From a virus, in IMG/VR virus record IMGVR_UViG_3300022822_000050, positions 1-35,666 of that record: a stretch of DNA of 35,666 nt; one strand, given 5' to 3'. Of this stretch, positions 18,019 to 31,775 are shown one piece after another. Position 1 is the first letter of the stretch; every line of letters begins with the position of its first letter. The notes below the pieces were generated by a model. It was not told the origin of the DNA, ran no database searches, and worked only from the letters and a program-made list of their open reading frames with translations. Both the position numbers and the translations under genes were made by a program.

Positions 18019-18049
18019 ATTAATACCTCGGTTAGTTGACTTGACAAAA

Positions 18050-18092
18050 ACAGTGTACACCTAATCATGTGAGTGTACACCTTTATTTATAT
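18050..18092 (-). promoter_or_regulatory. Operator/promoter element A
   Basis: Read on the minus strand: TATAAATAAAGGTGTACAC, then 12 bases, then GTGTACAC and T. The two 8-bp palindromes lie at 18073-18080 and 18053-18060, exactly 20 bp apart. TATAAA just upstream may be a -10 box placing the start of transcription at the first palindrome. It sits between dUTPase and the acidic gene. See also elements B and C. Confidence 0.8.
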
Positions 18093-18524
18093 TTATTTTA
18101 ACCTAAGTTCAGTATCATTAATTCCAGCATTGCCCCTGTCAGTATTATCTAGATCTGCTACTTCAATAATACACATGCTAGTTTTATGATCTTGGATTAT
18201 CATCTGTGCAATTTTATCACCACGCCTTAGCTCTACTAATTTATGTCCGTGATTGATAACGCTGATCATAACTTCACCAGTGTAATCGCTATCAATGACG
18301 CCTCCGAGTACATCCAGACCCCATTTATTAGCCAGCTTTGACCGGGGCCAGATTAAACCAACTGTGCCAGGTGGCAAGCTGAATGCTAAACCAGTGCTTA
18401 ACAATGCTCTGCAACCTGGTAATATTTCCGCATTACTTTCGGTATGCAAATCAAGGCCCGCATCGTTCAAATTTGAGAGGGATGGTAATTTTGCTGTTTT
18501 AGTCAATCGTTTAATTTTTATCAT
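18093..18524 (-). CDS. dut: dUTP diphosphatase
   Basis: Protein of 143 residues of the trimeric dUTPase family, which hydrolyses dUTP to dUMP and pyrophosphate, keeping uracil out of phage DNA and supplying dTMP precursor. Motifs in order: DAGLDL (21-26), PRSKLA (about 60-65), GVIDSDYTGEV (about 75-85) with the catalytic Asp, GDKIAQM (about 102-108). The fifth, Gly-rich motif that closes over the substrate is degenerate (RGNAGINDTELR instead of RGxxGFGSTG), losing the Phe that stacks on uracil. It overlaps the upstream gene by 14 bases and is followed by operator A. Confidence 0.92.
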   Translation of the reverse strand: MIKIKRLTKTAKLPSLSNLNDAGLDLHTESNAEILPGCRALLSTGLAFSLPPGTVGLIWPRSKLANKWGLDVLGGVIDSDYTGEVMISVINHGHKLVELRRGDKIAQMIIQDHKTSMCIIEVADLDNTDRGNAGINDTELRLK

Positions 18525-18693
18525 TACTATTCGTTCCTGTTATCTCTGTTCTTATATAATTAGCATCTAGCAGGCAAGGCAAATCTTTTTCTATAACTCT
18601 AATTATATGCGCTGGCTTTAGTCGCCACACTTCAATCATATGCAGATAAAAAGAATCATAGCTTACGCTGCGGATTAACGGCAATTGATTCAC
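18511..18693 (-). CDS. Hypothetical 60-residue protein
   Basis: Starts four bases inside the stop of the MazG-like gene (ATGA) and ends 14 bases inside dUTPase, so it is translated in the same coupled series. Sequence MNQLPLIRSVSYDSFYLHMI then VWRLKPAHIIRVIEKDLP. No recognisable domain or membrane segment. Confidence 0.6.
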   Translation of the reverse strand: MNQLPLIRSVSYDSFYLHMIEVWRLKPAHIIRVIEKDLPCLLDANYIRTEITGTNSNDKN

Positions 18694-18968
18694 TTGTAAC
18701 CATCGTTACCGTTACTACCGATTATATCAATTCGATCCTCTGACTCAGGCCAAACGGGTTCTTCCGCATCAATCAGGAACTGTAAATATTCAGCCAGGTC
18801 GAGTGCTTCTTCTTTAGCATGCTGTAAACACTGTTTACGTGATAGCAGAGAGTCCTTTAGCAATACACCGTACTTTTTTAAGCCCATTGTACGACGCTGC
18901 TTTATCTCCTCACACAGACGGTCAGGGATAGCATTAGTCATTTTTAGTGATGTTGTTTCATGGCTCAT
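18690..18968 (-). CDS. MazG-like nucleotide pyrophosphohydrolase, putative
   Basis: Protein of 92 residues resembling small all-alpha NTP pyrophosphatases found in phages. Residues 17-35 read PDRLCEEIKQRRTMGLKKYG, followed by the metal-binding helix HAKEEALDLAEYLQFLIDAE (about 52-71), whose E-E-x-x-x-D pattern is the family hallmark. It lies three genes from SSB and one from dUTPase, fitting a nucleotide-pool cleaning role. ATGA overlaps join it to both neighbouring genes. The short length is normal for this subgroup. Confidence 0.65.
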   Translation of the reverse strand: MSHETTSLKMTNAIPDRLCEEIKQRRTMGLKKYGVLLKDSLLSRKQCLQHAKEEALDLAEYLQFLIDAEEPVWPESEDRIDIIGSNGNDGYK

Positions 18969-19135
18969 TTCTTGCTCGCTTGCTTTATCTTTTCAAATTG
19001 CCCTTTGTAAACTTCAACTTCCCCGTTAGTTGACTCCCTGGTGTTATGCTCTGGGCTTTTTTCGCAGTACTTAAACCATGAATCATTCTCGCAGTAAAAC
19101 CAATCTGACTCGCCTATTTCTTGCCATTGCCTCAT
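18965..19135 (-). CDS. Small aromatic/acidic protein
   Basis: Frame of 56 residues between the VRR-NUC and MazG-like genes, with four-base ATGA overlaps at both ends. It begins MRQWQEIGESDWFYCENDSW, with two closely spaced cysteines (15 and 24) and several Trp/Tyr/Phe, and ends in a Lys-rich helix. No family is recognised; the coupled junctions make the coding call sound. Confidence 0.65.
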   Translation of the reverse strand: MRQWQEIGESDWFYCENDSWFKYCEKSPEHNTRESTNGEVEVYKGQFEKIKQASKK

Positions 19136-19464
19136 AATTTACCCTCTAAATCGAATATATAATCTTTAGCTACATCAAAACCGTTTACAACTACAGCGAT
19201 GTACCCGCACTCATTCAGGTAATCAATCCATTCTTGTTGCTCTGCCGATAACTTGCCGCCCTTTACTCTCTTAAACTCTAGCCATAGTCGCCACTCAGGT
19301 ATAAAGATGTCAGGTACGCCTTTACGGACACCTTCGGCTTTTAGCATTGTGGCGGTGATAACATTTCTGTTACCACCATTGGGAATTGCGAATAACCTAA
19401 CTTTTGGATATTGCAATTCGAACCACGTTACAAAGAGCTTTTGCTCTTGGTGTTCAGTCAGCAT
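19132..19464 (-). CDS. VRR-NUC domain nuclease
   Basis: Protein of 110 residues made of a single VRR-NUC domain, a PD-(D/E)xK structure-specific nuclease fold. N-terminal HQEQKLFVTWFELQYP supplies the conserved Glu helix. GVRKGVPDIFIP (about 45-56) carries the catalytic Asp, and LWLEFKRVKGGKLSAEQQEW (about 59-79) carries the E-x-K and the Q-x-x-W helix. Phage versions probably resolve branched recombination or replication intermediates. It follows the SSB stop with no gap. Confidence 0.9.
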   Translation of the reverse strand: MLTEHQEQKLFVTWFELQYPKVRLFAIPNGGNRNVITATMLKAEGVRKGVPDIFIPEWRLWLEFKRVKGGKLSAEQQEWIDYLNECGYIAVVVNGFDVAKDYIFDLEGKL

Positions 19465-19938
19465 TTAAAAAGGCATTTCGCTGTCATAGTCAAAATTAGG
19501 CTCTTGTTGATGCTGCATTTGTTTGTTTTGCATTGCCTGCTGAGAACGCGGGTTTTGCTGCGGGGCTTGCTGCTGTTGGTTGCCTTGCTGTTGTGGCTGC
19601 TGTCTTTGTTGCTGCGGCTGATTTCCTGTGTGAACGTGTCCGAGTCTCGCGTTTAACATGTTTATAGATAACTGCAATCCGTTGTTACCCTGGTACTGCT
19701 CAATCATCTGCTTTTCACAAAACACCTCCACGACTGAACCCTCTACCAGTGAGTCAGCGTAAAACTGTATTTGTGCTGGTGATTTTGCGAATATTACAGC
19801 GGAGTAGTTACACCAATCATCCTGACGCGTTTTTGGGTCTTGATATTTAACACCTAAACGGATACCAAAACCTGTTGAATCGCCTGCTGTAAATTGTGTT
19901 GCTGCTTTGTTTAACTTGCCTGTAATCGTTGTGCTCAT
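19465..19938 (-). CDS. ssb: Single-stranded DNA-binding protein
   Basis: Protein of 157 residues. An OB-fold of about 105 residues (MSTTITGKLNKAATQFTAGD; DWCNYSAVIFAKSPAQIQFY; SVVEVFCEKQMIEQYQG) is followed by a Gln/Pro/Asn-rich linker and the acidic tip DYDSEMPF that in SSBs recruits partner enzymes. It coats ssDNA during replication and ERF annealing. The linker is unusually Gln-rich (more than 20 Gln in about 40 residues). It is preceded by a one-base TAATG overlap and followed immediately by the VRR-NUC gene. Confidence 0.92.
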   Translation of the reverse strand: MSTTITGKLNKAATQFTAGDSTGFGIRLGVKYQDPKTRQDDWCNYSAVIFAKSPAQIQFYADSLVEGSVVEVFCEKQMIEQYQGNNGLQLSINMLNARLGHVHTGNQPQQQRQQPQQQGNQQQQAPQQNPRSQQAMQNKQMQHQQEPNFDYDSEMPF

Positions 19939-20162
19939 TATAAACCCTTACTTAAATGATTAACTGCCCAAGTTCTTACTTCAACATCTATTTTGTTATT
20001 TATTTCTTCCAGCTCTATCTGGATGGAATTTGCAAAGTCAATTTGCTCTTGTGACATTTCAACAAATACCTCTTGCCATTTAGATTCATTACATTGATAT
20101 GTAAATCCACTAACTTCAATTCCATCAATCACTCTTATCTCAAAATCGTATCTGTCGCCCAT
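19938..20162 (-). CDS. Hypothetical 74-residue protein
   Basis: Begins MGDRYDFEIRVIDGIEVSGF and has an acidic helical centre (EMSQEQIDFANSIQIELEEI). No known domain. It has its own ribosome site (AGGA in TATTAGGAATAAGACA) closely similar to that of the next gene upstream, and is coupled to SSB downstream. Confidence 0.6.
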   Translation of the reverse strand: MGDRYDFEIRVIDGIEVSGFTYQCNESKWQEVFVEMSQEQIDFANSIQIELEEINNKIDVEVRTWAVNHLSKGL

Positions 20163-20179
20163 TGTCTTATTCCTAATAG

Positions 20180-20494
20180 TTAAACTAATAAATCTGAATT
20201 GAATTGAGGGAATGTAATTATTGCCTCACATACTTGAACCTTTCCGTTTTTGTAATACTCACACCATAAGTCTAGGCTTTCCTCTCCTTCGCCACTTATC
20301 TTAAATAGTGCTTCTGGATGCTTTAGTGAAAACGCTTTCATATCATCTTGATGTTTATACCATTTGCGCTCCTCGCTTGTGTCGCCGTTAGGTCGTATGG
20401 CGTAAGATGCTTCCTCACAGAACTCACGCAATTCTTGAATTAAATCATTACTGCCTTGCTGCATTTCTAACGTGTGACTTGTTCTATATCCCAT
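20180..20494 (-). CDS. Conserved phage protein of unknown function
   Basis: Protein of 104 residues with the pattern of a conserved phage family: YRTSHTLEM near the start, ASYAIRPNGDTSEERKWYKH (about 29-48), then FSLKHPEALFKISGEGEESL and DLWCEYYKNGKVQ. The family recurs near recombination genes of gammaproteobacterial phages. Its function is unknown. AGGA ribosome site about 8 bases upstream. Confidence 0.65.
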   Translation of the reverse strand: MGYRTSHTLEMQQGSNDLIQELREFCEEASYAIRPNGDTSEERKWYKHQDDMKAFSLKHPEALFKISGEGEESLDLWCEYYKNGKVQVCEAIITFPQFNSDLLV

Positions 20495-20503
20495 TATCTT
20501 ATC

Positions 20504-21193
20504 CTAATAGTTAATTTTAGTGTGTGGTATTTTATTTTTTGCAATCATCGTGACTACAAGTTTAGCTTGTTCGATACTTAGTCTGCATTGCCCAAAAAGC
20601 TCATAAACAATCCTCTGATTAACTGCTCTTAGATGCTCCTTGTTAGCCAGTCTATTTGCTGCATCCTGCTTAATCGCTGCGTCTGTTACTTCCTGCGCCC
20701 TCTTTGCCGCATCGTTAGCACGATTAGTGGCATCAACTCTGATAGCCTCGTCACGTTCTGCCTGTGCATTCTCAGCAGCTAATTTATCAGCTAAATAGCT
20801 TTTATCTAGCAGTATTGCATATTCGTGATCGTTCTCTTTATTGATTGCTGCTTCAATATCAGCCTTGCGCTGCTTCTCTGCGTCTAATACTAGCTTTCGC
20901 TCTGCATCATAATCATCAATTAGCAGCGTAAAAGGCTCGTTAGATTTCTCAAGCGATTCGATTATTTGCGACGCTTGGCCCTCAACATTAGTGCGATAAG
21001 CTTTCGGCAGATCAATACGTACCCGGTTAACAAGTTTAATCATATCCTTGATAGCTACGGCTTTATCTTTAACATACTTACGTTGTTTTGCGTCTGACAT
21101 ATCAACGTATAGACCGATGTAATTCTCTGACTCGCTAGCAATGTCTAGCAATGCTTGCTCTGTCGTTACTTCATTAAACAATGTGATATTCAT
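20504..21193 (-). CDS. Coiled-coil protein of recombination cluster
   Basis: Protein of 229 residues, overlapping the ERF stop by ATGA. Residues about 35-100 are helical with basic content (AVAIKDMIKLVNRVRIDLPK). About 95-190 form a long Ala/Glu/Lys/Arg coiled coil (AAENAQAERDEAIRVDATNR...). It resembles helical phage proteins such as DUF1351 that travel with ERF or Bet annealing proteins. A partner or modulator of the annealase is a reasonable inference; a Gam-like nuclease inhibitor cannot be excluded. Confidence 0.65.
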   Translation of the reverse strand: MNITLFNEVTTEQALLDIASESENYIGLYVDMSDAKQRKYVKDKAVAIKDMIKLVNRVRIDLPKAYRTNVEGQASQIIESLEKSNEPFTLLIDDYDAERKLVLDAEKQRKADIEAAINKENDHEYAILLDKSYLADKLAAENAQAERDEAIRVDATNRANDAAKRAQEVTDAAIKQDAANRLANKEHLRAVNQRIVYELFGQCRLSIEQAKLVVTMIAKNKIPHTKINY

Positions 21194-21765
21194 ATTAATT
21201 TATTAGCTCTTAGGTGGGCGGCACACGCTGCAAGGTCAGGTATGTCTTTAATTGATTTAATTCTATCGTCGTTAAATGATTCCACAACCTGCTGATTAGA
21301 CCAGCCACACTCCTTGGCGACTGCTGCTATGTCAATTGGTGCTTTATACTGACCCTTTGATGCTGGCTTATTGCTAGATGAGTCTTCAAAGCTATCAGCA
21401 TCTTTATTATCGTCTATGCAAAACATCCCAGAAAGTGCGTATTTTCTTGAATAAGATGAAGTCGCTCCAGTTAACTGGCTATCATCCATGCCCTTTTTGT
21501 TTAATGACTCTCTTGCGTATGCTGTGTTGCACAAAGAAGATTCACCGTCTGTCAGTGTCACCGTTGCTTTGACGTAGTAGCGGTCGCCTATCATTACAAT
21601 CTCATCACTAATAAACAATGCTAACTCACCTAAGAGCGGCTTTACCGCCTCTAAAATATCTTCACAATTACGGTACTTGTAATTGCCAAACTTATTAAGC
21701 TGACCCTTGGGTGCTTTAAGACTCTGCTGAATCAATGACAGTGACTTCACTATTGATTTATTCAT
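21190..21765 (-). CDS. erf: ERF-family ssDNA annealing protein
   Basis: Protein of 191 residues. The ERF domain spans about residues 5-130: IQQSLKAPKGQLNKFGNYKY at the start, then the signature QLTGATSSYSRKYALSGMF and IDDNKDAD that end the core. ERF proteins anneal complementary ssDNA for recombination and genome circularisation. The C-terminal 55 residues after a Ser/Asn linker (about 135-191) contain a helical motif around CGWSNQQVVESF. The four-base overlap with the coiled-coil gene and the nearby SSB place it in a complete annealing module. Confidence 0.9.
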   Translation of the reverse strand: MNKSIVKSLSLIQQSLKAPKGQLNKFGNYKYRNCEDILEAVKPLLGELALFISDEIVMIGDRYYVKATVTLTDGESSLCNTAYARESLNKKGMDDSQLTGATSSYSRKYALSGMFCIDDNKDADSFEDSSSNKPASKGQYKAPIDIAAVAKECGWSNQQVVESFNDDRIKSIKDIPDLAACAAHLRANKLI

Positions 21766-21895
21766 TACCGTACCTCACATCGTCTGCCGCTTCTTTGGCG
21801 TATGCTATTGACGCAAGAACCATTAAATCACTGTGAGAAATATAACCCTCAATGATGAGCGCCTTGATTTTTTCTATTGCTTGGATGTTGTCCAT
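21758..21895 (-). CDS. Small 45-residue protein upstream of ERF
   Basis: Frame MDNIQAIEKIKALIIEGYIS and onward, ending ADDVRYGNE. Its ATG overlaps the preceding stop by one base (TAATG on the minus strand) and its end overlaps the ERF start by eight bases. Helical; no known family. The tight junctions support translation. Confidence 0.6.
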   Translation of the reverse strand: MDNIQAIEKIKALIIEGYISHSDLMVLASIAYAKEAADDVRYGNE

Positions 21896-22314
21896 TACTT
21901 ACTCCAGTTAGATAAAGTTAATTTAAGTGCGTCAATCTTAGCCTGATGCTTATCAATTTTAGCTTGGGTTTTAATATCTGCTAGTTCTGATGGGTTCGGT
22001 ACTACTCTGTAGCCATATTGGGGAATAAATGTAGGGTTTAAATCAAGATACCATTGACCGTCATAGTCAATTCTAACATCAATATCAGCACCCTTAGCCC
22101 ACTCAATAATTACATCAGCGTGTGGGCGTGGTGGGTTAGGGTATTTAGGCTGGGCTAGCTCAAGAGCATCATGATTGTAAATTGCAATGTATCCTTCACC
22201 ACCTACCTCATAACGCCCATCTCTGCGCAATTTTGAAATTCTAATTGTCCTACCGCTTTCAAAATACACTCCGCTCTTCTTAACTACCAAGTCGCCTATT
22301 TTAAATTCTGACAT
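21895..22314 (-). CDS. First gene of early minus operon, unknown
   Basis: I prefer ATG 22314 (MSEFKIGDLVVKKSG, 139 residues), which has AAGG upstream; the frame extends to ATG 22356 (153 residues) without an SD. The N-terminal part resembles a small beta-barrel (SH3-like: GDLVVKKSGVYFESG, KLRRDGRYEVGGEGYIAI). The segment HADVIIEWAKGADIDVRIDY followed by QWYLDLNPTF and YGYRVVP matches a short module found in many phage hypothetical proteins ('I-x-x-W-A-x-G-A ... Y-R-x-x-P'). It is the first gene transcribed leftward from the divergent control region. Confidence 0.7.
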   Translation of the reverse strand: MSEFKIGDLVVKKSGVYFESGRTIRISKLRRDGRYEVGGEGYIAIYNHDALELAQPKYPNPPRPHADVIIEWAKGADIDVRIDYDGQWYLDLNPTFIPQYGYRVVPNPSELADIKTQAKIDKHQAKIDALKLTLSNWSK

Positions 22315-22356
22315 ATTGTTCTGCCTTGCCGTTGATTGAATCCTAACCTTACGCAT

Positions 22357-22452
22357 GTTTATTGATTAGTGCAACTACTAATGTGATAATAATTTGCAAC
22401 GTGCGTAAATAAATATTACAATCAGATTCTATTCACAACAACGGTAATAATA
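22357..22452. promoter_or_regulatory. Divergent early promoter/operator region
   Basis: The 96-bp gap separates leftward and rightward early operons. Rightward: TTGATT (22363-22368), a 16-bp spacer, then extended -10 TGTGATAAT (22382-22390). An inverted repeat ATTAGT-GCAACT-ACTAAT (22365-22382) fills exactly this spacer and would block the promoter if bound. A wider inverted pair TTACGC (22349)/GCGTAA (22403) flanks it. I could not settle the leftward promoter. The HTH protein encoded right after (22453) is the obvious candidate ligand. Confidence 0.65.
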
Positions 22453-22656
22453 ATGAACTTCGGAAATGAGCTTAAAAAAGCAATGGTTGACTGCAACATC
22501 AAGGGTGCTAGAGAGCTATCAATTAAGTCTGGCTTGTCGTATGGCAAGGTTATTAGGGCGCTTAATGGTGATGGTAGTTCACGCTATTGGGATGTTGCAA
22601 CACTGGCAGATACTGTTGGTCTGCGTATAGTTTTATTTAAAAAAGCTGTGCTGTAA
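22453..22656 (+). CDS. HTH regulator of divergent region, putative
   Basis: Protein of 67 residues with a helix-turn-helix at about 17-45: GARELSIKSGLSYGKVIRAL, followed by ATLADTVGLRIVLFKK, whose closing strand resembles that of the Xre protein at 17514. First gene rightward from the divergent region, the cro position. It ends in a TAATG overlap with the NinB gene. A Cro-like or early switch role is inferred; there is no cleavage or dimer domain as in CI. Confidence 0.7.
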   Translation: MNFGNELKKAMVDCNIKGARELSIKSGLSYGKVIRALNGDGSSRYWDVATLADTVGLRIVLFKKAVL

Positions 22657-23096
22657 TGGACAAGCGGACAATGCTAATACGCAAATCCACCAGCCAGGCT
22701 GACGGCAAGAAACTATGGGGCGAAATATCAGCGTTTCTAAAAGCCAGCGATACACCTGTTAAAATCACAATAGAGGAGGCAACAGACAACCGCAGACTAG
22801 CACAGAACAAGCTTAATTTTATGTGGTGCAATGAAGTGGCTAAACATGTCTTTACATCGCAGGGGCTTGTATGTAGCTCTGAGGACATACACGAACTGAT
22901 AGCCCGCAAATTATTACCGCTTCGAGTAGTGACTCTGAATAATGAAACCGTTATTTATAGGAGTGAGACTAAAACGCTATCCGTTAAAAAGTTTAGCGAG
23001 TATCTACAGCGTTTCGAGTACTACGCACTTGAGCAGCTTGGTGCAAAACTCACGCATCCGGATGATTTATATTTTAACGCAATAGGAAATAAATAA
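22656..23096 (+). CDS. ninB: NinB-like recombination protein
   Basis: Protein of 146 residues resembling lambda NinB (Orf), an ssDNA- and SSB-binding recombination mediator. Matching features are VKITIEEATDNRRLAQNKLN (about 35-54), corresponding to the lambda 'I-x-E-x-x-R-S-L-D-Q-N-R-K-L' block, a central helix region, and SVKKFSEYLQRFEYYALEQL near 110-130, matching the family's 'm-s-x-x-e-f-s-e-l-i-e-x-i' helix. The final DDLYFNAIGNK is unusual. Its coupling to a Cro-like gene and its proximity to a YbcO homologue reproduce part of the lambda nin region. Confidence 0.8.
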   Translation: MDKRTMLIRKSTSQADGKKLWGEISAFLKASDTPVKITIEEATDNRRLAQNKLNFMWCNEVAKHVFTSQGLVCSSEDIHELIARKLLPLRVVTLNNETVIYRSETKTLSVKKFSEYLQRFEYYALEQLGAKLTHPDDLYFNAIGNK

Positions 23097-23263
23097 TGAA
23101 AATGTATTACGTAATCGGAATAAGTGACACTCGAGGAGAGTTTTATCCAAGAGGTGTTACAGGCAGTAAGATAAAAGCCGAAAAATTTAAATTAAACTTA
23201 GCTAAAGGCTTGTCTCCAAATGCTAGGCAGTGGGCAGAAACTAGAGAAGTTAACGGCATTTAA
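23096..23263 (+). CDS. Small 55-residue protein
   Basis: Frame MKMYYVIGISDTRGEFYPRG and onward, started in a TAATG overlap with the NinB stop. Lys/Asn-rich with a beta-strand start; no known family. The coupling and open length make it likely real. Confidence 0.6.
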   Translation: MKMYYVIGISDTRGEFYPRGVTGSKIKAEKFKLNLAKGLSPNARQWAETREVNGI

Positions 23264-23278
23264 ATCAGGAATTAACCA

Positions 23279-23578
23279 ATGAAGTCTAAAAAAATACGCG
23301 ATTCAGCACGTAACGAAGAATGTCAGGTTCGCATACCTGGCATTTGCAACTTTAACGACGAAACCACAGTTGCCGCACACATTGGCAGCGGTGCTGGAAT
23401 GGGTCGCAAAGTTTCTGACTTAGAAATAGCATACTGCTGTAGCTCATGTCATGACGTGCTAGACGGTAGGGTCAGAGATAAGCATCACAGCTATGATGAT
23501 TTACTAATCATGGGCTACCAGGGCGCAGCTAGAACGAGAGAGATACTAGCCAGTAAACAACTAATAAACGTCAAGTAG
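23279..23578 (+). CDS. YbcO-like nuclease, DUF1364
   Basis: Protein of 99 residues matching E. coli YbcO/DUF1364, a small HNH-type metal-dependent nuclease of the lambda nin region. Near-identical landmarks: RDSARNEECQVRIPGICN (about 6-23), then VAAHIGSGAGMGRKVSDL with the conserved His, and CCSSCHDVLDGR with the C-x-x-C-H metal site. C16, C22, C50, C53 and H54 are candidate ligands. It is preceded by an AGGA ribosome site. It probably acts on branched DNA in recombination. Confidence 0.88.
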   Translation: MKSKKIRDSARNEECQVRIPGICNFNDETTVAAHIGSGAGMGRKVSDLEIAYCCSSCHDVLDGRVRDKHHSYDDLLIMGYQGAARTREILASKQLINVK

Positions 23579-23776
23579 ATGATTGATGTAGGGTTTACAA
23601 TATGCAAAAAACTCACGTTCTCGACCCGATCCCGTGCCAAACAGTTTCTAAAACGCATCGGTAAAACACATAAACAAAGAGCGTATAAATGCCCGTTCTG
23701 CCAGTACTTCCACAACACGTCAGTTGACAGTATTGGACGGCAGGATATAAAAGAAATCAACAGCAGGAAGAACTAG
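23579..23776 (+). CDS. Small zinc-ribbon-like protein
   Basis: Protein of 65 residues directly abutting the YbcO-like stop. The segment FSTRSRAKQFLKRIGKTHKQ then RAYKCPFCQYFHNTS follows a pattern common among small phage zinc-binding proteins ('k-A-Y-k-C-P-x-C-x-x-w-H-l-T-S'). The first two ligands are C38-x-x-C41 and H45 may be the third. C9 could be a fourth. The role is unknown; RNA or DNA binding is plausible. An upstream start alternative cannot be excluded. Confidence 0.65.
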   Translation: MIDVGFTICKKLTFSTRSRAKQFLKRIGKTHKQRAYKCPFCQYFHNTSVDSIGRQDIKEINSRKN

Positions 23777-23778
23777 TA

Positions 23779-24498
23779 ATGATAAAATTAATACATGGCG
23801 ATTGCCTAGAGAAGATGAAAGACATTGAGAGCGGATCAGTTGACATGATCCTAGCTGATCCGCCATACGGCACTACTCAATGTAAATGGGATTCAATTAT
23901 ACCGCTTGAACCGATGTGGGAGCAGCTTAAAAGGATTATAAAGCCTAACGGTGCAATAGTATTATTTGGGTCAGAGCCTTTTAGCAGTTTTTTAAGATGC
24001 AGCAACATAAAACAGTATAAGTATGATTGGATTTGGGAAAAAACCAGACCTACAGGCAGCATGTCAGCTAAAAAACAACCTTTACGAAATACCGAAAGTA
24101 TAATTGTTTTTTATAAAAAACAACCTTTATATAATCCACAGATGAATAGAGCTAAAATTGTTGTAGAAAAAAAAAGGACTGTAGATAAAGGCGAAGCTTT
24201 ACGAAATTTTAAATTAACTAGGGTTTTTAATAATAATGGACTTGCATATCCTAGAACCATTTTAAAATTTAATAATCCAAATTATAAAAGCTTACACCCA
24301 ACACAAAAACCAGTCGCACTGATGGAATACCTAATCAAAACCTACACCAACGAAAACGAAACAATTTTAGACTTTTCTATGGGCAGCGGCACAACAGGAG
24401 TTGCAGCAAAAAACCTAAACCGCAGCTTCATTGGTATTGAACTAGACGAAGTTTACTTTGCAGTAGCAGAGACGAGGATAAAAGGCGCTATAGAGTAG
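23779..24498 (+). CDS. DNA adenine/cytosine-N4 methyltransferase, beta class
   Basis: Protein of 239 residues that would transfer a methyl group from SAM to an exocyclic amine in DNA. The catalytic DPPYG is near the N-terminus (27-31). SAM-binding motif I, FSMGSGTTGVAAK, is at about 200-212 and followed by IGIELDEVYFAVA, giving the beta-class order. HPTQKPVALMEYLIK (about 173-187) is the usual motif before it. The target-recognition middle (24061-24300) is only about 26% GC against about 40% in the following line. No restriction enzyme is nearby, so it is probably a solitary anti-restriction or regulatory methylase. Confidence 0.9.
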   Translation: MIKLIHGDCLEKMKDIESGSVDMILADPPYGTTQCKWDSIIPLEPMWEQLKRIIKPNGAIVLFGSEPFSSFLRCSNIKQYKYDWIWEKTRPTGSMSAKKQPLRNTESIIVFYKKQPLYNPQMNRAKIVVEKKRTVDKGEALRNFKLTRVFNNNGLAYPRTILKFNNPNYKSLHPTQKPVALMEYLIKTYTNENETILDFSMGSGTTGVAAKNLNRSFIGIELDEVYFAVAETRIKGAIE

Positions 24499-24530
24499 GG
24501 TAATACAATTTAACTAACAGGATAAAACTA

Positions 24531-24887
24531 ATGAACAACGTAACTAACATAAGAGATTATTTAGGACGCAAACAAGACAACGAATTTAGAGTTTGCACTA
24601 TGGAGCAGTTCATAAACACAATGAATGGGCCAGCATATGATGACAGCGGTTATGTAGTTGAGCTGTTCAAGTATCCTTGCCCAGTTGATGGTGAGCTAAT
24701 AGGCTGGTGGATAATGTATTATAATCCAGAGGATCACATGAGATACGTAGTGGCTAATGATGATCACAACGGTATCAATGATTTTATATTAGACTACAGA
24801 TCAATTGAAGAAATAACCGACATACTATGCAGTCTTAAAGAGTGCGGTAGGGTAGTTAACCTAAACATATCAAGCCCACCAGTCTAA
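24531..24887 (+). CDS. Hypothetical protein ending + operon segment
   Basis: Protein of 118 residues, AGGA ribosome site upstream. Beginning MNNVTNIRDYLGRKQDNEFR; a central ELIGWWIMYYNPEDHMRYVV is rich in aromatic residues and acidic patches. No recognised family. It lies last before a strong terminator, so it closes the nin-like unit that begins at 22453. Confidence 0.65.
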   Translation: MNNVTNIRDYLGRKQDNEFRVCTMEQFINTMNGPAYDDSGYVVELFKYPCPVDGELIGWWIMYYNPEDHMRYVVANDDHNGINDFILDYRSIEEITDILCSLKECGRVVNLNISSPPV

Positions 24888-24895
24888 TAAACACC

Positions 24896-24918
24896 AGCCT
24901 CAGAAATGGGGCTTTTTT
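24896..24918 (+). terminator. Strong rho-independent terminator
   Basis: AGCCTC (24896-24901) pairs with GGGGCT (24908-24913), six base pairs including one T-G, with a six-base loop AGAAAT and a TTTTT run. Nine bases after the stop of the preceding gene. It ends the nin-like unit and isolates the KilA-N control region. Confidence 0.85.
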
Positions 24919-24987
24919 ATGCCTGCCATATGGCCTTAATCTTATTCTATAAATATTTACACAATATCATTAGCCGTTGGTTTACAT

Positions 24988-25144
24988 GGGCATTGAGGAT
25001 GCTTTATTAATCAAGCCTCCTCTTATATGTAATATTTAAACATCCTAAATGCCCGTTATTGGTATGTTAGTAATTTGCCTATGTAAAACAATGCTTTAGT
25101 TAAAGTTAAATGTTTAAATGCGTATTCATTTGTACATTACAAAT
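24988..25144. promoter_or_regulatory. Palindrome-rich control region before KilA-N gene
   Basis: The 238 bases between terminator and next gene hold no gene but two strong dyads: a 14-bp inverted pair GGGCATTGAGGATG (24988-25001)/CATCCTAAATGCCC (25041-25054) with one mismatch over a 39-bp AT-rich centre, and a tight palindrome ATTTGTA-CAT-TACAAAT (25128-25144) 12 bp before the first start codon. TTACA/TGTAA words recur between them. The region resembles an operator set or secondary origin; no certain promoter boxes were found. Confidence 0.6.
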
Positions 25145-25156
25145 TAAAGTGATACC

Positions 25157-25648
25157 ATGAGTTTTAATTACAAGATTAAGGTCAATATTATGAATGAAGG
25201 ATTTGTTTCTTTAACGGATATGCACAAGAAGCTTGGAGGCGAAATTCGCAAGCTTCCCAACAAGTTTACAGTAAGGTTTAAGGAGTTAATTGGTACAGAG
25301 ATATTAATCAAAAAGGGCAGGCATGGCGGCGGTACATGGGCATCACCAAGAATAGCTGAATATTATGAAAAGTGGGCGACAGAGTATTGCGATGAATTTC
25401 ATCTAAGGTCTTTTTGCCAAAGGGAAAGCGCAGCACTATTAACTATTGAGCAAATAAAGGGCATTACTTTAAATAGACAGTTTAGCGTTTTAGGTTACAG
25501 AGTTGACGGTTACGATGAGATAAATAACGTTGCTTATGAAATAGACGAAAACCACCACAAGAAAACGCAACATAGAGCTAAGGATGGTGATAGGCAAAGA
25601 GCAATCATCGCAGCTTTAAATTGTGATTTTATAAGAGTTAAGGTTTAA
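25157..25648 (+). CDS. KilA-N/nuclease fusion protein
   Basis: Protein of 163 residues (or 152 if started at ATG 25190, which alone has a good SD, TAAGGT). Residues 10-80 match a KilA-N-type DNA-binding domain: EGFVSLTDMHKKLGGEIRK at the start and GRHGGGTWASPRIAEYYEKW at the end. The C-terminus (about 110-163) looks like a PD-(D/E)xK nuclease of the Vsr-like sort: GYRVDGYDEINNVAYEIDE, a His-His pair, then DRQRAIIAALNCDFIRVKV. Such fusions are known from phage antirepressor-like and giant-virus proteins. It stands alone after a terminator and control region, so it is probably regulated apart from the nin-like genes. Confidence 0.75.
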   Translation: MSFNYKIKVNIMNEGFVSLTDMHKKLGGEIRKLPNKFTVRFKELIGTEILIKKGRHGGGTWASPRIAEYYEKWATEYCDEFHLRSFCQRESAALLTIEQIKGITLNRQFSVLGYRVDGYDEINNVAYEIDENHHKKTQHRAKDGDRQRAIIAALNCDFIRVKV

Positions 25649-25651
25649 GCA

Positions 25652-26353
25652 ATGAGTGCAAAATACACTTATAGGTCGCTGGCGTATAACGCTGGCAACC
25701 CTATCAAAAAACTTATATTGATAATGATGTCAAACATTGCTGATGATAACGGCGTCTGTTTTCCTAGTCATAAAACAATAGCCATTAGATGCGGCGTATC
25801 TTCTAGCACTACACGTAAGCACATTGATGATCTTATTAACGCGGGGATCATAGTTAAGCAAAATAGATTTAACGATAAAGGCCAGACATCAAACACGTAT
25901 AAAATATGTCTTCCAATGACTGAATGGGAAACATCTACCCCCATGCCTAGAGACGGCACCCCCCCTGCCGTTAAAAAGCAGGGCCCCCTGCCGTTATCCG
26001 GCGACGAATCTACTCAGTTAGAATCTACTCAGTTAAATATAAAAGATAATGTTGGTCAAGACCAACGCGATGTTATTAACAAAGCATTCGAACATGTCTG
26101 GAAAGTTTGGAGCAAGACTAAAAAAGAGATTGGCACGAATGATAACTCTATAAAAAAGGATGCTAAGAATCTTGCTTGGATAAAAACATTTAATGCTAGT
26201 TACTTTAAAAATAACGATGTAGATTATTTCAAAGAGGAAGTTAACGCTATTGCTAAAAATATCAGCTCGACACATAAGACTGACGGGTTCAACAGTTACA
26301 CAAACATGCACTTTGTTAACTACCTTAAAAAAACACCTTGGAGAAAAGATTAA
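25652..26353 (+). CDS. Replication initiator, phage O-like HTH protein
   Basis: Protein of 233 residues. Residues 1-90 are a winged helix-turn-helix of the HTH_36/O-protein type: YRSLAYNAGNPIKKLILIMM, NGVCFPSHKTIAIRCGVSSS, TTRKHIDDLINAGIIVKQNR. A Pro/Gln/Ser linker follows (about 100-130), carrying the origin-like repeats, then a helical C-terminal domain ending TNMHFVNYLKKTPWRKD that probably loads the helicase. The DnaB gene lies two genes on. The layout equals lambda O with its origin inside the gene. It ends in a TAATG overlap. Confidence 0.8.
   Translation: MSAKYTYRSLAYNAGNPIKKLILIMMSNIADDNGVCFPSHKTIAIRCGVSSSTTRKHIDDLINAGIIVKQNRFNDKGQTSNTYKICLPMTEWETSTPMPRDGTPPAVKKQGPLPLSGDESTQLESTQLNIKDNVGQDQRDVINKAFEHVWKVWSKTKKEIGTNDNSIKKDAKNLAWIKTFNASYFKNNDVDYFKEEVNAIAKNISSTHKTDGFNSYTNMHFVNYLKKTPWRKD
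25961..26040 (+). other. Candidate replication origin within initiator gene
   Basis: In the linker-coding part of the initiator gene lie two direct repeats CCCCCTGCCGTTA (25961-25973 and 25984-25996, 23 bp apart). Between and within them is a dyad GCAGGG-CC-CCCTGC (25978-25991). Then come two tandem copies of GAATCTACTCAGTTA (26006-26020, 26021-26035), directly followed by an AT-rich stretch. GC-rich repeats beside an AT-rich tract inside the initiator gene is the lambda ori arrangement. Confidence 0.6.
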
Positions 26354-26556
26354 TGTTTAAGTGGATAAATGCAAAAACCGAATTACCTAACGACAGTGAT
26401 CACATAATCATGGTTGACGATAGCGATCAAATATATTCAGGCAGAGGCAGGGTATTTAATAATAGAATTAAAGTAAGAGAGTCAGGAGACGGGCGTTTTG
26501 ATGTTTGCACTCACTGGATGCTATTACCAGAACCACCAGTTAGGGATATAAAATGA
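26353..26556 (+). CDS. DUF551 protein
   Basis: Protein of 67 residues started at ATG 26353 in a TAATG overlap; a longer frame from TTG 26338 is unnecessary. It matches the small DUF551 pattern: FKWINAKTELPNDSDHIIMV at the start and the diagnostic THWMLLPEPP near the end. DUF551 proteins are common accessory phage proteins of unknown role. It is followed by a four-base overlap with the helicase gene. Confidence 0.75.
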   Translation: MFKWINAKTELPNDSDHIIMVDDSDQIYSGRGRVFNNRIKVRESGDGRFDVCTHWMLLPEPPVRDIK

Positions 26557-27872
26557 ATAATTTAAAAATACCACCTAACAGCTCTACTGCTGAACAATCT
26601 ATAATCGGTTCAATACTAGTAGACGAGAAAGTATTGAACGGCGTACTTGAAATACTGCGCCCTGAGCATTTCTACAACCATACTAACTCGATTATATTTA
26701 CAGCGATTAAAGAGCTTGCATCAAGAAAGACGGCAATAGACATTGTTACGTTAGGCGATTACCTAGAGAAAAAACATCAGACTGGCGAACATTTCCCATA
26801 TTTAATCCAGTTGAGCAAGGATACGCCCTCATCACGCAACGCAATAGCTTATTGTGAAGCCGTAATACGCCACTGGAACGGTAGAAAGATAATAGAGGCG
26901 TGTTACAAAGCCTCCGACGATATATACGCTAAGAATGGCTATGAGGAGACTAGGAGAACATTGTATGAGGATTTAGAGCCGTTGTTTCAGTCTAACGGCG
27001 AGGAGATTATACATGGAGTAGATGATTTATGCACTGACTTCATTGATGAAATGGAGCGACTAGCTAAAAGCGAGACTGGATTGTCTGGATTATCAACAGG
27101 TGATTATCACATTGATGAAGCTACCGGAGGATTCCATGCTGGCGATTATATTGGATTGGCTGCTAGGTCAGGCGGTGGTAAGACAACGAAGGCGCTTAAC
27201 ATTTTAGGCCATTACACTTTGCAGGGTAGGCGGTCACTGTTTTTCAGTATGGAGATGAAACGCCAGAAAGTCATGATGAAGTTAGTCTCAGACATCGGAA
27301 ACGTGCCATTCTCAGCGATTAAGAAGGGGCAACTAGAGGATCATCAGTGGAATGGGGTCAGCAATGCGATACAGCTAGTTAAGACTAGTAAATTGCATGT
27401 TGATGATTCAAGCGGATTGAGTATTGACGACATAGAGCGCAAATCCAGGCAGATAAAAGCCAAGTACGGGGAATTAGATTTAATCGTCATTGACTACATC
27501 CAGAGACTAAAAATTGACAGTGGCAATATGTACCAAGAGCTAACGAACGCATCTAACCGATTGAAGGATCTATTCATGGAATTAGGTTGCGCTGGAATCG
27601 TTCTGGCGCAGTTAAAAAAGAACTCGATAGGAGTGCCAAACGCTAGTGACTTGAGAGAAACCGGAGCGATTGAGAACGACAGTGATGCCTTGATATTCTT
27701 GCATACTCCGAGTGAGGACTTAAAACCCCATAAAGGGATGCTGACTATGGAAATATTTAACAAGGTTCGGTTTGGTGAAGCAGGCATTAAGATGTTGCGT
27801 AACGAGTTGGATTACCAGCGATTTGCTTGCTCAGATGATGATTACGTGGAAGCTAACGACAGTTTTAAATGA
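26553..27872 (+). CDS. dnaB: Replicative DNA helicase, DnaB family
   Basis: Protein of 439 residues that unwinds DNA ahead of the replication fork as a hexamer. The N-terminal DnaB domain (about 1-110) begins TAEQSIIGSILVDEKVLNGV. The RecA-type core follows: Walker A ARSGGGKTT with K210 (instead of the usual RPSMGKT), Walker B LIVIDYIQ with D314, then GCAGIVLAQL and DLRETGAIENDSDALIFL, the family motif that senses nucleotide. Length is close to that of bacterial DnaB (about 470). It overlaps both neighbouring genes by four bases. Confidence 0.92.
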   Translation: MNNLKIPPNSSTAEQSIIGSILVDEKVLNGVLEILRPEHFYNHTNSIIFTAIKELASRKTAIDIVTLGDYLEKKHQTGEHFPYLIQLSKDTPSSRNAIAYCEAVIRHWNGRKIIEACYKASDDIYAKNGYEETRRTLYEDLEPLFQSNGEEIIHGVDDLCTDFIDEMERLAKSETGLSGLSTGDYHIDEATGGFHAGDYIGLAARSGGGKTTKALNILGHYTLQGRRSLFFSMEMKRQKVMMKLVSDIGNVPFSAIKKGQLEDHQWNGVSNAIQLVKTSKLHVDDSSGLSIDDIERKSRQIKAKYGELDLIVIDYIQRLKIDSGNMYQELTNASNRLKDLFMELGCAGIVLAQLKKNSIGVPNASDLRETGAIENDSDALIFLHTPSEDLKPHKGMLTMEIFNKVRFGEAGIKMLRNELDYQRFACSDDDYVEANDSFK

Positions 27873-28066
27873 CACACAACATAACACCAGAGCAGCAAGT
27901 GGAGGAAAATAAAAACCTGGCAGCAGCTCGGTGGGCTTGGAAGATAATGACAAAACAGTTGCGTAATGCCCAGGCTAAGGCAGAAATATTTCAGTCTGAG
28001 TATGACCAATTTGACATGGAAGATAGGGTCAGGCGATACATTAAAGCGGGGCTAGTTAAGCGGTGA
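27869..28066 (+). CDS. Small helical protein after helicase
   Basis: Protein of 65 residues overlapping the helicase stop by ATGA. Helical and charged, beginning MTHNITPEQQVEENKNLAAA, with a basic end RYIKAGLVKR. No family is recognised. It closes the replication unit; operator B follows directly. Confidence 0.6.
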   Translation: MTHNITPEQQVEENKNLAAARWAWKIMTKQLRNAQAKAEIFQSEYDQFDMEDRVRRYIKAGLVKR

Positions 28067-28075
28067 TTTAAATTA

Positions 28076-28117
28076 ATTACAAATAAAGGTGTACACACAC
28101 AACATTAGGTGTACACT
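28076..28117 (+). promoter_or_regulatory. Operator/promoter element B
   Basis: TACAAATAAAGGTGTACAC with the first palindrome at 28089-28096, 12 bases, then GTGTACAC at 28109-28116 followed by T. The 20-bp repeat spacing is the same as in elements A and C. TACAAA just ahead may be a -10 box. Lies in the 95-bp gap before the acidic protein gene. Confidence 0.8.
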
Positions 28118-28161
28118 CTTTATATCGAAACAATGCAGACCAACCAACAAGAGTAAATAAC

Positions 28162-28656
28162 ATGACTAATCTAAAAGCAGCAACAGCAGCGATGGAAAGT
28201 GCAGTGTCAGAACTAGGCGGCATTGATTTAGCAATTGAGGCTTGCGACCGGATGTATAACGCCACTTTTCGATCTGAGCCTTTCACGTTATCTGATGAAG
28301 AAATTGCAGATCAAGAAAGCGCTTTAATCATTGAGTTGGCCGCCCATCTCTATATCTCCGAGACTGGCAACAAAGCGCCAGTGCCTCCGCAAGAATCTTA
28401 TAATTCTTATTGTGACGATGATTATGAATTAGAAAGTTATCATGCTTCGATGGAAGCCTTTGAAGAATTTGCGGAGGACTGGTTTGCCAATAAATATCCA
28501 GATTTTAAGATTACTAAAGATACGTTAGTAGTATGTTTTTGTAATTACAAAGGTGAGGGTGAGGGTCAAGACGGTTTATATGACTTGCACAAGCACCTTC
28601 CAGTTTTTGTAAGCAAAAGCCAATCTTTTAATGCAGTAAACCAAGAGAGTAAATAA
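28162..28656 (+). CDS. Strongly acidic protein behind operator B
   Basis: Protein of 164 residues. I count 31 Asp/Glu against 11 Lys/Arg, net about -20. Acidic patches include SDEEIADQE, CDDDYELES and FEEFAEDWF. It is helical with no recognised domain. Such charge is typical of DNA-mimic anti-restriction proteins, but also of many ordinary phage proteins. It is the first gene after regulatory element B, which makes it comparable to the acidic gene behind element A. Ribosome site GAG about 9 bases before the ATG. Confidence 0.75.
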   Translation: MTNLKAATAAMESAVSELGGIDLAIEACDRMYNATFRSEPFTLSDEEIADQESALIIELAAHLYISETGNKAPVPPQESYNSYCDDDYELESYHASMEAFEEFAEDWFANKYPDFKITKDTLVVCFCNYKGEGEGQDGLYDLHKHLPVFVSKSQSFNAVNQESK

Positions 28657-28657
28657 T

Positions 28658-28834
28658 ATGTTTTATCAAACACTAGAGCAGTCACTAAAAACAACTACAG
28701 CGGTAATTTTAAGCTCAGTTGTCTACATGCACAAAGGTCAGCCAAGAAACATAATAAAAGCAAGAAAGCTAAAGGGAAAAAAAGTATTTATGGTCGTGCA
28801 ATACACTGATGGTAGGTTTTCTACAGCAGTTTAA
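28658..28834 (+). CDS. Small basic protein
   Basis: Frame of 58 residues (MFYQTLEQSLKTTTAVILSS...). Basic centre KGQPRNIIKARKLKGKKVFM; beta-type end. It starts one base after the preceding stop. Unknown family. Likely real because of its place and coding length, though too small for a functional call. Confidence 0.6.
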   Translation: MFYQTLEQSLKTTTAVILSSVVYMHKGQPRNIIKARKLKGKKVFMVVQYTDGRFSTAV

Positions 28835-28839
28835 TCAGC

Positions 28840-28853
28840 AGCCCTACGGGGCT
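28840..28853 (+). other. UNCG-loop hairpin before RHH gene
   Basis: AGCCC-TACG-GGGCT, a five-base-pair GC stem closed by a TACG (UNCG type) tetraloop, one of the most stable small RNA hairpins. It lies five bases after a stop and 17 before the next ATG. No T-run follows, so it is more likely an mRNA-stabilising or translation-tuning element than a terminator. Confidence 0.6.
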
Positions 28854-28870
28854 ATAACCGAGGTTTAAAA

Positions 28871-29020
28871 ATGAAGCATCCAGAGAAGGCGATCGAACGA
28901 TTCAACATAGTGCTAACTATAACTCAGCGCAAAAACTTAACTAGGTTAGCGGCATTAAACAACATGAGCATGTCAGATTACATACGATACTGCTGTAAAT
29001 TAAACGGGGATAAAATATGA
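28871..29020 (+). CDS. Ribbon-helix-helix protein
   Basis: Frame of 49 residues that matches the Arc/CopG fold. A strand RFNIVLTIT is followed by helix QRKNLTRLAALNNM and helix SMSDYIRYCC, the 'S-x-S-x-x-I-R' turn being the family's usual mark. It probably binds DNA as a dimer. It overlaps the PAPS-reductase-like gene by ATGA and is preceded by the UNCG hairpin and an SD-like GAGG. Confidence 0.7.
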   Translation: MKHPEKAIERFNIVLTITQRKNLTRLAALNNMSMSDYIRYCCKLNGDKI

Positions 29021-29787
29021 GTAGAATAATTTGTTGGTTTAGTTGCGGGGCTGCTAGTGCAGTAGCTACAAAAATGGTTTTAGCGGATAAGGAGCTTAGA
29101 GAACAGTATGATGAAGTTGTAATCGCATATTGTAAAATAAAAGAAGAACACAAAGATAATGAAAGGTTCTTAAATGAGTGCCAAGAGTGGTTTAACTATC
29201 CAATCACTACAATAATTCATGAAGGTTATGAAGGTAGTATCTACAATGTATTCGAGAAAAATTACATGAGAACGCCAGCAGGTAGCCCTTGCACAAGAGC
29301 ACTAAAGAAGCAAGTTAGGACAAAGTTTCAAAGACATGATGATTTGCATGTGTTCGGGTACACAGTGGAAGAGGCCGATAGGGCTGATAAGTTCATTGAT
29401 GCAAATAACGAAATACTTACACACTGGCCCTTGATTGATGGAAATATAACAAAGGAGGCTACGTTGTCTATGATTGAACGTGCAGGTATAGAACTGCCAG
29501 AGATGTACAAGTTAGGGTATGAGCATAATAACTGCGTAGGTTGCGTCAAAGGTGGCATGGGATACTGGAACAAGATACGAGTAGACTTTCCTGATGAGTT
29601 TAAAAAGATGGCAGACTTTGAGAGGCGCAAAGGGTATACAGTACTAAAAGAGCCTAAAGGTGGTCAGCCTTTGTATTTGCATGACCTAGACCCAAAGAGA
29701 GGTAGACTAAAAGACGAGCCTAAAATCGAATGCGGAATATTTTGTGAGATGGCAGAAAGTAAATATAACCAAGGAAATAAAATATGA
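29017..29787 (+). CDS. PAPS-reductase-like (PP-loop) protein
   Basis: Protein of 256 residues of the adenine nucleotide alpha-hydrolase superfamily, as in phosphoadenosine phosphosulfate reductase and DndC. The PP-loop is WFSCGAASAVATK (about 6-18). Further landmarks are GSPCTRALKKQVR (about 89-101), VFGYTVEEADRADKF, and cysteine sites NNCVGCVKGGMGYW (about 171-184) and ECGIFCE near the end. The multiple Cys pairs suggest a metal or iron-sulfur site. Phage members are widespread and their reaction is unproven. ATGA overlaps bind it to the RHH gene before and the small gene after. Confidence 0.8.
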   Translation: MSRIICWFSCGAASAVATKMVLADKELREQYDEVVIAYCKIKEEHKDNERFLNECQEWFNYPITTIIHEGYEGSIYNVFEKNYMRTPAGSPCTRALKKQVRTKFQRHDDLHVFGYTVEEADRADKFIDANNEILTHWPLIDGNITKEATLSMIERAGIELPEMYKLGYEHNNCVGCVKGGMGYWNKIRVDFPDEFKKMADFERRKGYTVLKEPKGGQPLYLHDLDPKRGRLKDEPKIECGIFCEMAESKYNQGNKI

Positions 29788-29909
29788 GTGAATTTAAAAA
29801 AGTAACGCTGCCAAATTGGACTAATGACATGCCAGATAAAACGCTATTGAGCTACTCAGACGTTGCTTCAATGTTTGGTTACACATATGCTCAGATGGTC
29901 ATTGGGTAG
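29784..29909 (+). pseudogene. Amber-interrupted small HTH-like gene
   Basis: Frame of 41 residues, starting in an ATGA overlap and stopping at TAG 29907-29909. The sequence MSEFKKVTLPNWTNDMPDKT, LLSYSDVASMFGYTYAQMV looks like an excisionase-type winged helix that stops in its middle. The same frame continues after the TAG (PENFTGRAGVKRTFNGGWE) without another stop and joins the gene at 29967 in frame. It could be a nonsense mutation (TGG to TAG) or a true short gene. Confidence 0.5.
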
Positions 29910-29966
29910 CCTGAGAACTTTACAGGCAGAGCAGGAGTTAAACGAACTTTCAATGGGGGCTGGGAA

Positions 29967-30449
29967 ATGAGTAAGTTAGTTTTTAAAGCAAAAAGATTAC
30001 CGCTATCATGCACTGAAACTAACGATGCTGTTAAATTCCTAAAGTCAAAAAAATTAAAACCTAAAACAGCAGAGCTTTTTAATTATTTTCAAGTCGAGGT
30101 GGTGATAAACGACAGGGTTTTTATATACATACCTGTATCAAGAAAATTCAGAATGAAATTATACAGAGGGATAATGACATTTAGGGAGTCAAAAAGCTTA
30201 GAAGATTTTTTATGCCAAGCAACTAAATTAAGCGCAGATACGAACTCTAATAAACCGACCGAAAAACAGATTGATTTGATTATAAGGTTGTCAAATGAAC
30301 AAGGCGTAGGAATTGAAATTAGTGATATAAAATCCAAAAGAAAGGCCTGCGAAATAATCAAAGCTTTAATTAACAAAGTATTTTTAGATGAGCCGGATCA
30401 AGATGAAGAATTGCCAAGAAATGTGTTTTTAATAAGGCCTCGATCATGA
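29967..30449 (+). CDS. Hypothetical protein with DUF3072-like motif
   Basis: Protein of 160 residues beginning at ATG 29967, preceded by a G-rich SD-like stretch. The N-terminal 85 residues are basic and beta-type. Near 95-110 the segment KPTEKQIDLIIRLSNEQGVG resembles a short motif of DUF3072/phage helical proteins ('P-T-x-k-Q-x-x-l-i-x-x-L'). The frame is continuous upstream through the amber codon, so it may once have been the C-terminal part of a 221-residue protein. Overlaps the next gene by four bases. Confidence 0.65.
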   Translation: MSKLVFKAKRLPLSCTETNDAVKFLKSKKLKPKTAELFNYFQVEVVINDRVFIYIPVSRKFRMKLYRGIMTFRESKSLEDFLCQATKLSADTNSNKPTEKQIDLIIRLSNEQGVGIEISDIKSKRKACEIIKALINKVFLDEPDQDEELPRNVFLIRPRS

Positions 30450-30823
30450 GGCGTAGAAATAACTCAGTATTTGAAGGCATCAAAGATGAGCTGGTCAAGA
30501 TGATACAGCTTGGCATACCAGTTAAAATCATTGCCGCTAAACTTGGGTACACTCACAATCACTTATCATCAATAATGACCCGTAACGACTGTAGTGCGCT
30601 AGAGATACGCAGAGAGTACAAAGAAGCTAATCCTAGCCCAGTATATAAGGATAACGAGGCGCATTGTAAGGATGAGCGCAGGGGGCAGTTAAAGAGATTG
30701 GCTGGCATGGGTATGAGCGTGCAGGGTATGGCGAATGAATTTAACACGACGTATAGAGACATGGCTAGGCAATTGAGCGAGTTGAAAGTGGGCGTTATTG
30801 TTGAGCGGAACAAATTAATTTAA
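30446..30823 (+). CDS. Two-HTH DNA-binding protein
   Basis: Protein of 125 residues with two similar helix-turn-helix stretches: MIQLGIPVKIIAAKLGYTHN then HLSSIMTR (about 18-45), and LAGMGMSVQGMANEFNTTYR then DMARQLSEL (about 83-111). Both follow the 'L-x-x-x-G-x-s-v-x-x-I-A-x-x-l' pattern. It lies directly ahead of operator C and could bind phage promoters, but no target is evident. ATGA-coupled to the gene before. A late-gene regulator is an option. Confidence 0.65.
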   Translation: MRRRNNSVFEGIKDELVKMIQLGIPVKIIAAKLGYTHNHLSSIMTRNDCSALEIRREYKEANPSPVYKDNEAHCKDERRGQLKRLAGMGMSVQGMANEFNTTYRDMARQLSELKVGVIVERNKLI

Positions 30824-30864
30824 ATACAAATAAAGGTGTACACTTCAATATGTAGGTGTACACT
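30823..30864 (+). promoter_or_regulatory. Operator/promoter element C
   Basis: TACAAATAAAGGTGTACAC with palindrome one at 30836-30843, 12 bases, then GTGTACAC at 30856-30863 followed by T. Same spacing and flanks as elements A and B. It begins at the stop of the two-HTH gene and stands 33 bases before the RHH gene at 30896. Confidence 0.8.
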
Positions 30865-30895
30865 ATTAACTCAATAAAAAACTAGGAATTAATCA

Positions 30896-31540: not shown

Positions 31541-31581
31541 ATTATGACAATATCAACTTTTATTTAGGAGTAGGGTTATGA
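31537..31581 (+). CDS. 14-residue coupling ORF
   Basis: MNYDNINFYLGVGL, whose start overlaps the preceding stop (ATGA) and whose stop overlaps the next start (ATGA). The SD of the next gene, GGAG, lies inside it. Possibly only a translation relay between the neighbours; existence as a functional peptide is doubtful. Confidence 0.25.
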   Translation: MNYDNINFYLGVGL

Positions 31582-31751: not shown

Positions 31752-31775
31752 AAAACAACTTGCATTGTAAATTTG

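Follow-up and report, generated by a model that had tools for sequence, protein, structure and literature searches.

In phage lambda, OR1 and OR2 are two cooperative sites that lie about two helical turns apart across a promoter. Operators can also be dispersed: C1 of phage P1 has operators dispersed over the genome and represses lytic genes from adjacent operators (PMC8546580), and mycobacteriophage L5 (Cluster A) carries dispersed operators and stoperators that are oriented with transcription and whose sequences diverge, along with the repressor, from one related phage to another (PMC6550527). The YefM-YoeB and Axe-Txe operator consists of paired palindromes with a TGTACA core that overlap the promoter (PMC7730913). 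The phage genome described here likewise holds one site at several places, oriented to genes, in three paired elements (Table 1).

The window, that is, the whole stretch of DNA analysed, is an entire IMG/VR virus record of 35,666 bases. The opening 203 bases recur unchanged at the end, which makes a complete assembly (about 35.46 kb) probable. Identity between the terminase and its counterpart in Guernseyvirinae-like phages is 62% (Guernseyvirinae include Kagunavirus, for example), and no tyrosine integrase was found in the genome. The leftward genes (17347-22356) comprise those for an Erf-like annealing protein, SSB, a phrog_824 protein with additional weaker resolvase-like matches, and dUTPase, followed by 17716-17514-17347. 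The rightward genes (22453-34938) encode NinB, HNH, a methyltransferase, an O-like initiator, DnaB, accessory proteins, exonuclease and terminase. The methyltransferase-like gene (23779-24498) matches the DNA adenine methyltransferases DpnA, CcrM and MboIIA, and GATC is under-represented in the window (59 occurrences, ratio 0.47). An imperfect inverted repeat at 24988-25054, with 22-nt arms that are 82% complementary and 23 nt apart, lies within 270 bp of A/T-rich sequence devoid of genes, ahead of a KilA-N-like gene and the gene for the O-like initiator; it folds better than shuffles (z -3.1) and is a possible origin or regulatory hairpin. The tape measure gene holds two 184-nt copies that are 80% identical at an offset of 201 bp (7944-8328), and the accessory block between elements 2 and 3 includes a gene for a PAPS-reductase-like phage protein (29017-29787; phrog_424, 1.5e-42). 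Rfam and tRNA searches found nothing.

Over the whole window, GTGTACAC occurs six times in the 35.7-kb genome against 0.43 expected, always within one of three pairs at a pitch of 20 bp, and none of 100 shuffles reached six. The pattern TAYAAATAAAGGTGTACAC-N12-GTGTACAC has exactly three matches (strands -, + and +), a number unchanged with three mismatches permitted. When all 8-bp palindromes were scanned at pitches of 9-40, GTGTACAC at pitch 20 was the sole pair in the genome, found three times; the same scan of 300 Markov shuffles gave a mean of 0.14 pairs and never a repeated pair. The TGTACA core is present in all six boxes but is not enriched by itself (13 versus 10), the enrichment being limited to paired GTGTACAC. 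Thus the preliminary description, which had reported three GTGTACAC pairs exactly 20 bp apart with none elsewhere, each reading toward the next gene, was correct on both points. Across the three copies the identical columns read TA.AAATAAAGGTGTACAC....A....TAGGTGTACACT, and these invariant columns define AGGTGTACAC as the repeated unit and TAGGTGTACACT as the second unit. The spacers between the boxes share 2-7 of 10 positions pairwise and differ at 3-8, whereas the 20 repeat positions are identical. This combination of invariant repeats and variable spacers shows that recent duplication does not simply explain the identity. Iterons were rejected, as the boxes occur only in pairs, dispersed and at gene starts, and a methylation switch was unsupported, GTAC being neither avoided nor enriched (87 versus 98).

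Table 1. Elements, genes behind them and boxes aligned with those of related phages
Feature	Position	Strand	Description
Element 1	18052-18101	-	A/T tract (UP-like), TATAAATAAAGG, box 1 GTGTACAC (18073-18080), spacer, box 2 GTGTACAC (18053-18060), T (18052); pair 18053-18080; proposed -35 TGTACA and -10 TACACT within boxes; faces 17716 (-); syntenic with L009 (699-736) and L011 (2106-2134)
Element 2	28068-28117	+	A/T tract, TACAAATAAAGG, boxes 28089-28096 and 28109-28116, T 28117; pair 28089-28116; immediately 3' of dnaB and gene 27869; faces 28162 (+); syntenic with L009 (7863-7900) and L013 (about 252-282)
Element 3	30815-30864	+	A/T tract, TACAAATAAAGG, boxes 30836-30843 and 30856-30863, T 30864; pair 30836-30863; precedes and faces RHH-like gene 30896 (+)
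Gene 17716	17716-18015	-	Acidic 99-aa protein (D+E 23, K+R 10); first gene behind element 1
Gene 17514	17514-17732	-	XRE (HTH_3) protein, candidate repressor; gene 2 of element-1 operon; Pfam HTH_3 8.5e-8
Gene 17347	17347-17517	-	Small HTH-like protein; gene 3 of element-1 operon; weak HTH_23 / UPF0175 matches
Gene 28162	28162-28656	+	Acidic 164-aa orphan protein (D+E 31, K+R 11); behind element 2
Gene 28871	28871-29020	+	49-aa NikA-like RHH candidate; element-2 operon; Pfam NikA-like 2.4e-4, below cut-off
Gene 30896	30896-31042	+	48-aa RHH-like protein, candidate autorepressor; behind element 3; sequence pattern only
Aligned boxes, window			GTGTACAC..GTGTACACT
Aligned boxes, L009			GTGTTTACAT..GTGTTTTATTAT and CTGTTTACAT..GTGTTTTAAGGT
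Aligned boxes, L013			GTGTTTACAT..ATGTAATATTAT; second copy GTGTATACAT..ATGTAATTAT, pitch 22
Aligned boxes, L011			TACTTTACAT..GTGTACTATCGT

Close relatives recognised by DnaB were L009 (88%), L010 and L011 (86%), L012 (67%) and the fragment L013; a DnaB profile search gave no further close ones. The preliminary description had named recurrence of the same pair in relatives as one check, and this was borne out in part: GTGTACAC, and hence its pair, is absent from all five records, but L009 carries a direct repeat of pitch 20 with other letters at both corresponding places. These ACAAAAGTGTTT pairs stand after dnaB (ACAAAACTGTTTACATCAATACAAAAGTGTTTTAAGGT) and after the dUTPase gene (ACAAAAGTGTTTACATTGATACAGAAGTGTTTTATTAT), and a blind scan of the full 32,958-bp L009 record for direct repeats matching at 12 or more of 14 positions at pitch 20 returned those two places only. 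In L013, a similar element pair with a shared leader is found after dnaB and at a reverse-strand accessory gene between structural genes. The latter gene (8796-9160) encodes an acidic 72-aa protein and carries a copy of the after-dnaB promoter plus the same leader. In L011, TACTTTACATGTAATTAAATGTGTACTATCGT precedes the counterpart of gene 17716, and this element has loose boxes only. L010 and L011 are without an element after dnaB and have a TTGACA-16-TATAGT promoter there instead. L009 and L011 both retain the operon 17716-17514 behind their corresponding element.

The five elements of the relatives were aligned with the three of the window, taking the left box as position 0 and the right one as position 20. 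This revealed (R)TGT boxes at pitch 20 throughout, except in one L013 copy with a pitch of 22, and an A/T content of 82-91% over the 22 bp upstream of all eight elements. In the relatives, the A/T tract is followed by a -35 (TTTACA) within the left box, the right box 20 bp further and then the -10. Their promoters (TTTACA-17-TATTAT, TAAGGT or TATCGT) are each the best of their stretch, with scores of 6.5-9.4, and the pitch-22 copy of L013 has a weaker one (2.6-3.5). A search of nine records with TTTACA-N12-TGTNNTANNNT hit exactly four places, each belonging to these elements; the chance expectation, for four of the nine records, is about 0.08, a significance that is overstated because the pattern derives from the elements themselves, whose places were fixed first by synteny. 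Judged by these alignments, related phages appear to have retained a comparable two-box switch at corresponding places while its letters changed. The three-copy regulon of the preliminary description is thus well supported as an operator-bearing promoter set, its 20-bp pitch recurring syntenically in relatives.

On balance, we favour the interpretation that the elements are dispersed early promoters under one phage-encoded repressor, which would bind two tandem boxes on one face of the DNA; being two helical turns apart, the boxes would lie on the same face. Each promoter would be read by the main (sigma-70-like) RNA polymerase of the host and would consist of an A/T-rich UP-like tract, a -35 for which the first palindrome supplies its core (TGTACA), and a -10 (TACACT) that starts inside the second. 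A small phage-encoded DNA-binding protein would occupy both boxes, perhaps cooperatively, and cover both polymerase contact sites, whereby the three dispersed accessory operons would be repressed jointly. The repressor (17514, 30896 or 28871) is probably itself a product of at least one of these operons, which would create negative feedback. Shared on/off control of accessory gene groups is the most likely role of the three-site switch.

The main repressor candidates are the XRE protein 17514, behind site 1, and the RHH-like protein 30896, behind site 3. Homologues of 17514 are present behind the corresponding L009 and L011 elements with a different recognition helix in each, and such helix divergence together with changed boxes is expected if operator and repressor co-diverge. 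Counting against 17514, an 8-bp palindrome is short for a canonical XRE dimer. L011 also contains an ORF similar to 17347. RHH proteins read such short palindromes, as MetJ does. That the protein behind the third element is an RHH protein, as had been claimed, held for the RHH-like sequence of 30896 but gained no confirmation from libraries or fold: the protein had no significant match in Pfam, PHROGs or PDB and a weak one in NCBIfam (E 0.028), AF2 on the single sequence gave an all-helical model in which the RHH fold was not confirmed, and a search in phages returned three insignificant Gordonia matches. A homologue search with 28871 gave no match, and no counterpart of either protein was found in the relatives. 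The two other downstream proteins, 17716 and 28162, are indeed strongly acidic, as had been noted. For 17716, the AF2 model has a pLDDT of 75, a PDB fold search gave no match and a profile search returned L009 and L011 alone; relatives sought via 28162 were confined to the same phage. We tentatively put forward 17514 as the binder and, just as tentatively, one of the RHH proteins (30896 or 28871); a host protein seems unlikely.

The XRE protein 22453, which had been among the HTH proteins suggested for binding tests on the three sites, was set aside as an unlikely binder: L011 has the same recognition helix, SYGKVIRALN, yet contains no GTGTACAC. Another motif, GTGCAACTANTA, is conserved at the divergent early promoter region (window 22357-22452, L009 about 4396-4486, L011 about 4591-4722). 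As the helix of 22453 is identical in the window and L011, this region is likely its operator, and GTGCAACTANTA near 22.4 kb would probably be a more natural site for 22453 than the GTGTACAC boxes.

The boxes might instead be sites of a host regulator exploited by the phage, for example a Phd/YefM-type antitoxin, so that the promoters sense the state of the host. YefM and Axe operators are also paired TGTACA-core palindromes over a promoter (PMC7730913, PMC4803016), and the phage offers candidate binders only. However, YefM pairs are spaced 12 bp centre to centre versus 20 here, a search of the genome for PF02604 at E up to 10 revealed no Phd/YefM gene and the box letters differ among related phages. 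Furthermore, 84,980 bacterial and archaeal genomes contain a single copy of the exact element (in a Magnetococcales MAG), about as many as chance predicts, and thus gave no sign of a host regulon built on this pair. We therefore regard this explanation as improbable. Phage records gave no match to the exact element, and IMG/VR gave five against about one by chance: one represents the same phage (L003, 100% over 13.6 kb), whereas the remaining four showed no blastn similarity to the window. The IMG/VR contigs L001 and L005 each contain five GTGTACAC within about 120 bp, where GAGTGTACACCTGAG-like units repeat, probably as a coding repeat; they have no detected DNA similarity to the window.

Where the promoter lies bears on two further explanations. 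Promoters were scored with hexamer frequencies that follow published compilations. The sole hexamer pair common to the three window copies at a matching place is TGTACA-16-TACACT, whose score of 4.5 is below the median (5.3) of the best scores that random 140-bp stretches reach. With this pair as the equivalent window promoter, the palindromes fall on -35 and -10; if it is correct, palindrome 1 would be centred on -35 and palindrome 2 would overlap -10. The predicted overlap of promoter and site is evident from the sequences of L009, L011 and one L013 copy, and weak in the window. Since the relatives' promoter reaches from the first box to slightly beyond the second, the A/T stretch is at the position of an UP element. 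An A/T tract adjoining -35 fits the proximal subsite of an UP element, which could compensate for the weak window hexamers.

The preliminary description had instead taken TAyAAA as the -10, with the start at the first palindrome and a repressor occluding the start and downstream DNA. TAYAAAT is kept in all three copies, and TTGAGC-18-TACAAA scores 4.7 at site 3, but the best -35 scores only 2.1 and 1.9 at sites 1 and 2, the block 5' of the A/T tract is coding sequence that lacks conservation, and the extent of the relatives' promoter contradicts this assignment, which we consider quite improbable. The low window score, in turn, implies a promoter that is weak or needs help, so the boxes could be activator sites at which a phage middle-gene activator, MotA-type, aids polymerase at poor hexamers. 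The window hexamers are poor and yet the boxes are perfectly conserved; most corresponding promoters of the relatives, however, score well unaided, and a protein seated on -35 and -10 blocks rather than recruits, with few exceptions, which leaves activation with a similarly slim chance. Recent copying of one promoter without a dedicated regulator, by cassette duplication or as recombination homology, is very improbable, because duplication would not protect the boxes alone and L009 retains pitch 20 with different letters, even though all three elements drive accessory genes and the L013 copy of promoter and leader drives a reverse-strand moron between structural genes.

If repression from two boxes is the true explanation, the elements provide a compact marker (two boxes, 20-bp pitch, on -35 and -10) for locating accessory genes that switch together in an uncultured group of Guernseyvirinae relatives, and would allow a test of how operator and repressor co-diverge with geometry and location fixed. 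They would also represent lysogeny-style dispersed repression in a phage that, on the search for a tyrosine integrase, shows no sign of lysogeny. More speculatively, and with rather low confidence, an integrase-less lineage may maintain one cassette of fixed 20-bp two-box geometry at syntenic places and at insertable accessory genes, its copies co-changing with a small autoregulated repressor. The result would be a private, perhaps counter-defence, switch that can be blind to the switches of relatives. Nothing already known is overturned by the three elements.

Compared with the described systems, the elements share TGTACA-core paired palindromes with the YefM operator, and probably also the overlap with a promoter. 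YefM-YoeB is a single autoregulated operon with 12-bp spacing and a Phd/YefM protein; given the spacing of 20 and the lack of such a protein, the elements are not YefM operators. Lambda uses long operators bound by a CI or Cro dimer in a single divergent control region, whereas here short palindromes serve three dispersed operons. P1 C1 is the known repressor of a temperate phage and has 22 asymmetric 17-bp operators, versus three paired 8-bp palindromes, no tyrosine integrase found and candidate repressors only in the present phage. The L5 sites are single, asymmetric and mostly away from promoters; here, all are paired and at gene starts. By analogy, the working mode may resemble that of the dispersed operators of P1 C1 and L5, with candidates for the repressor. 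Dispersed operators are thus already known in phages, and the geometry found here is unusual and conserved in position.
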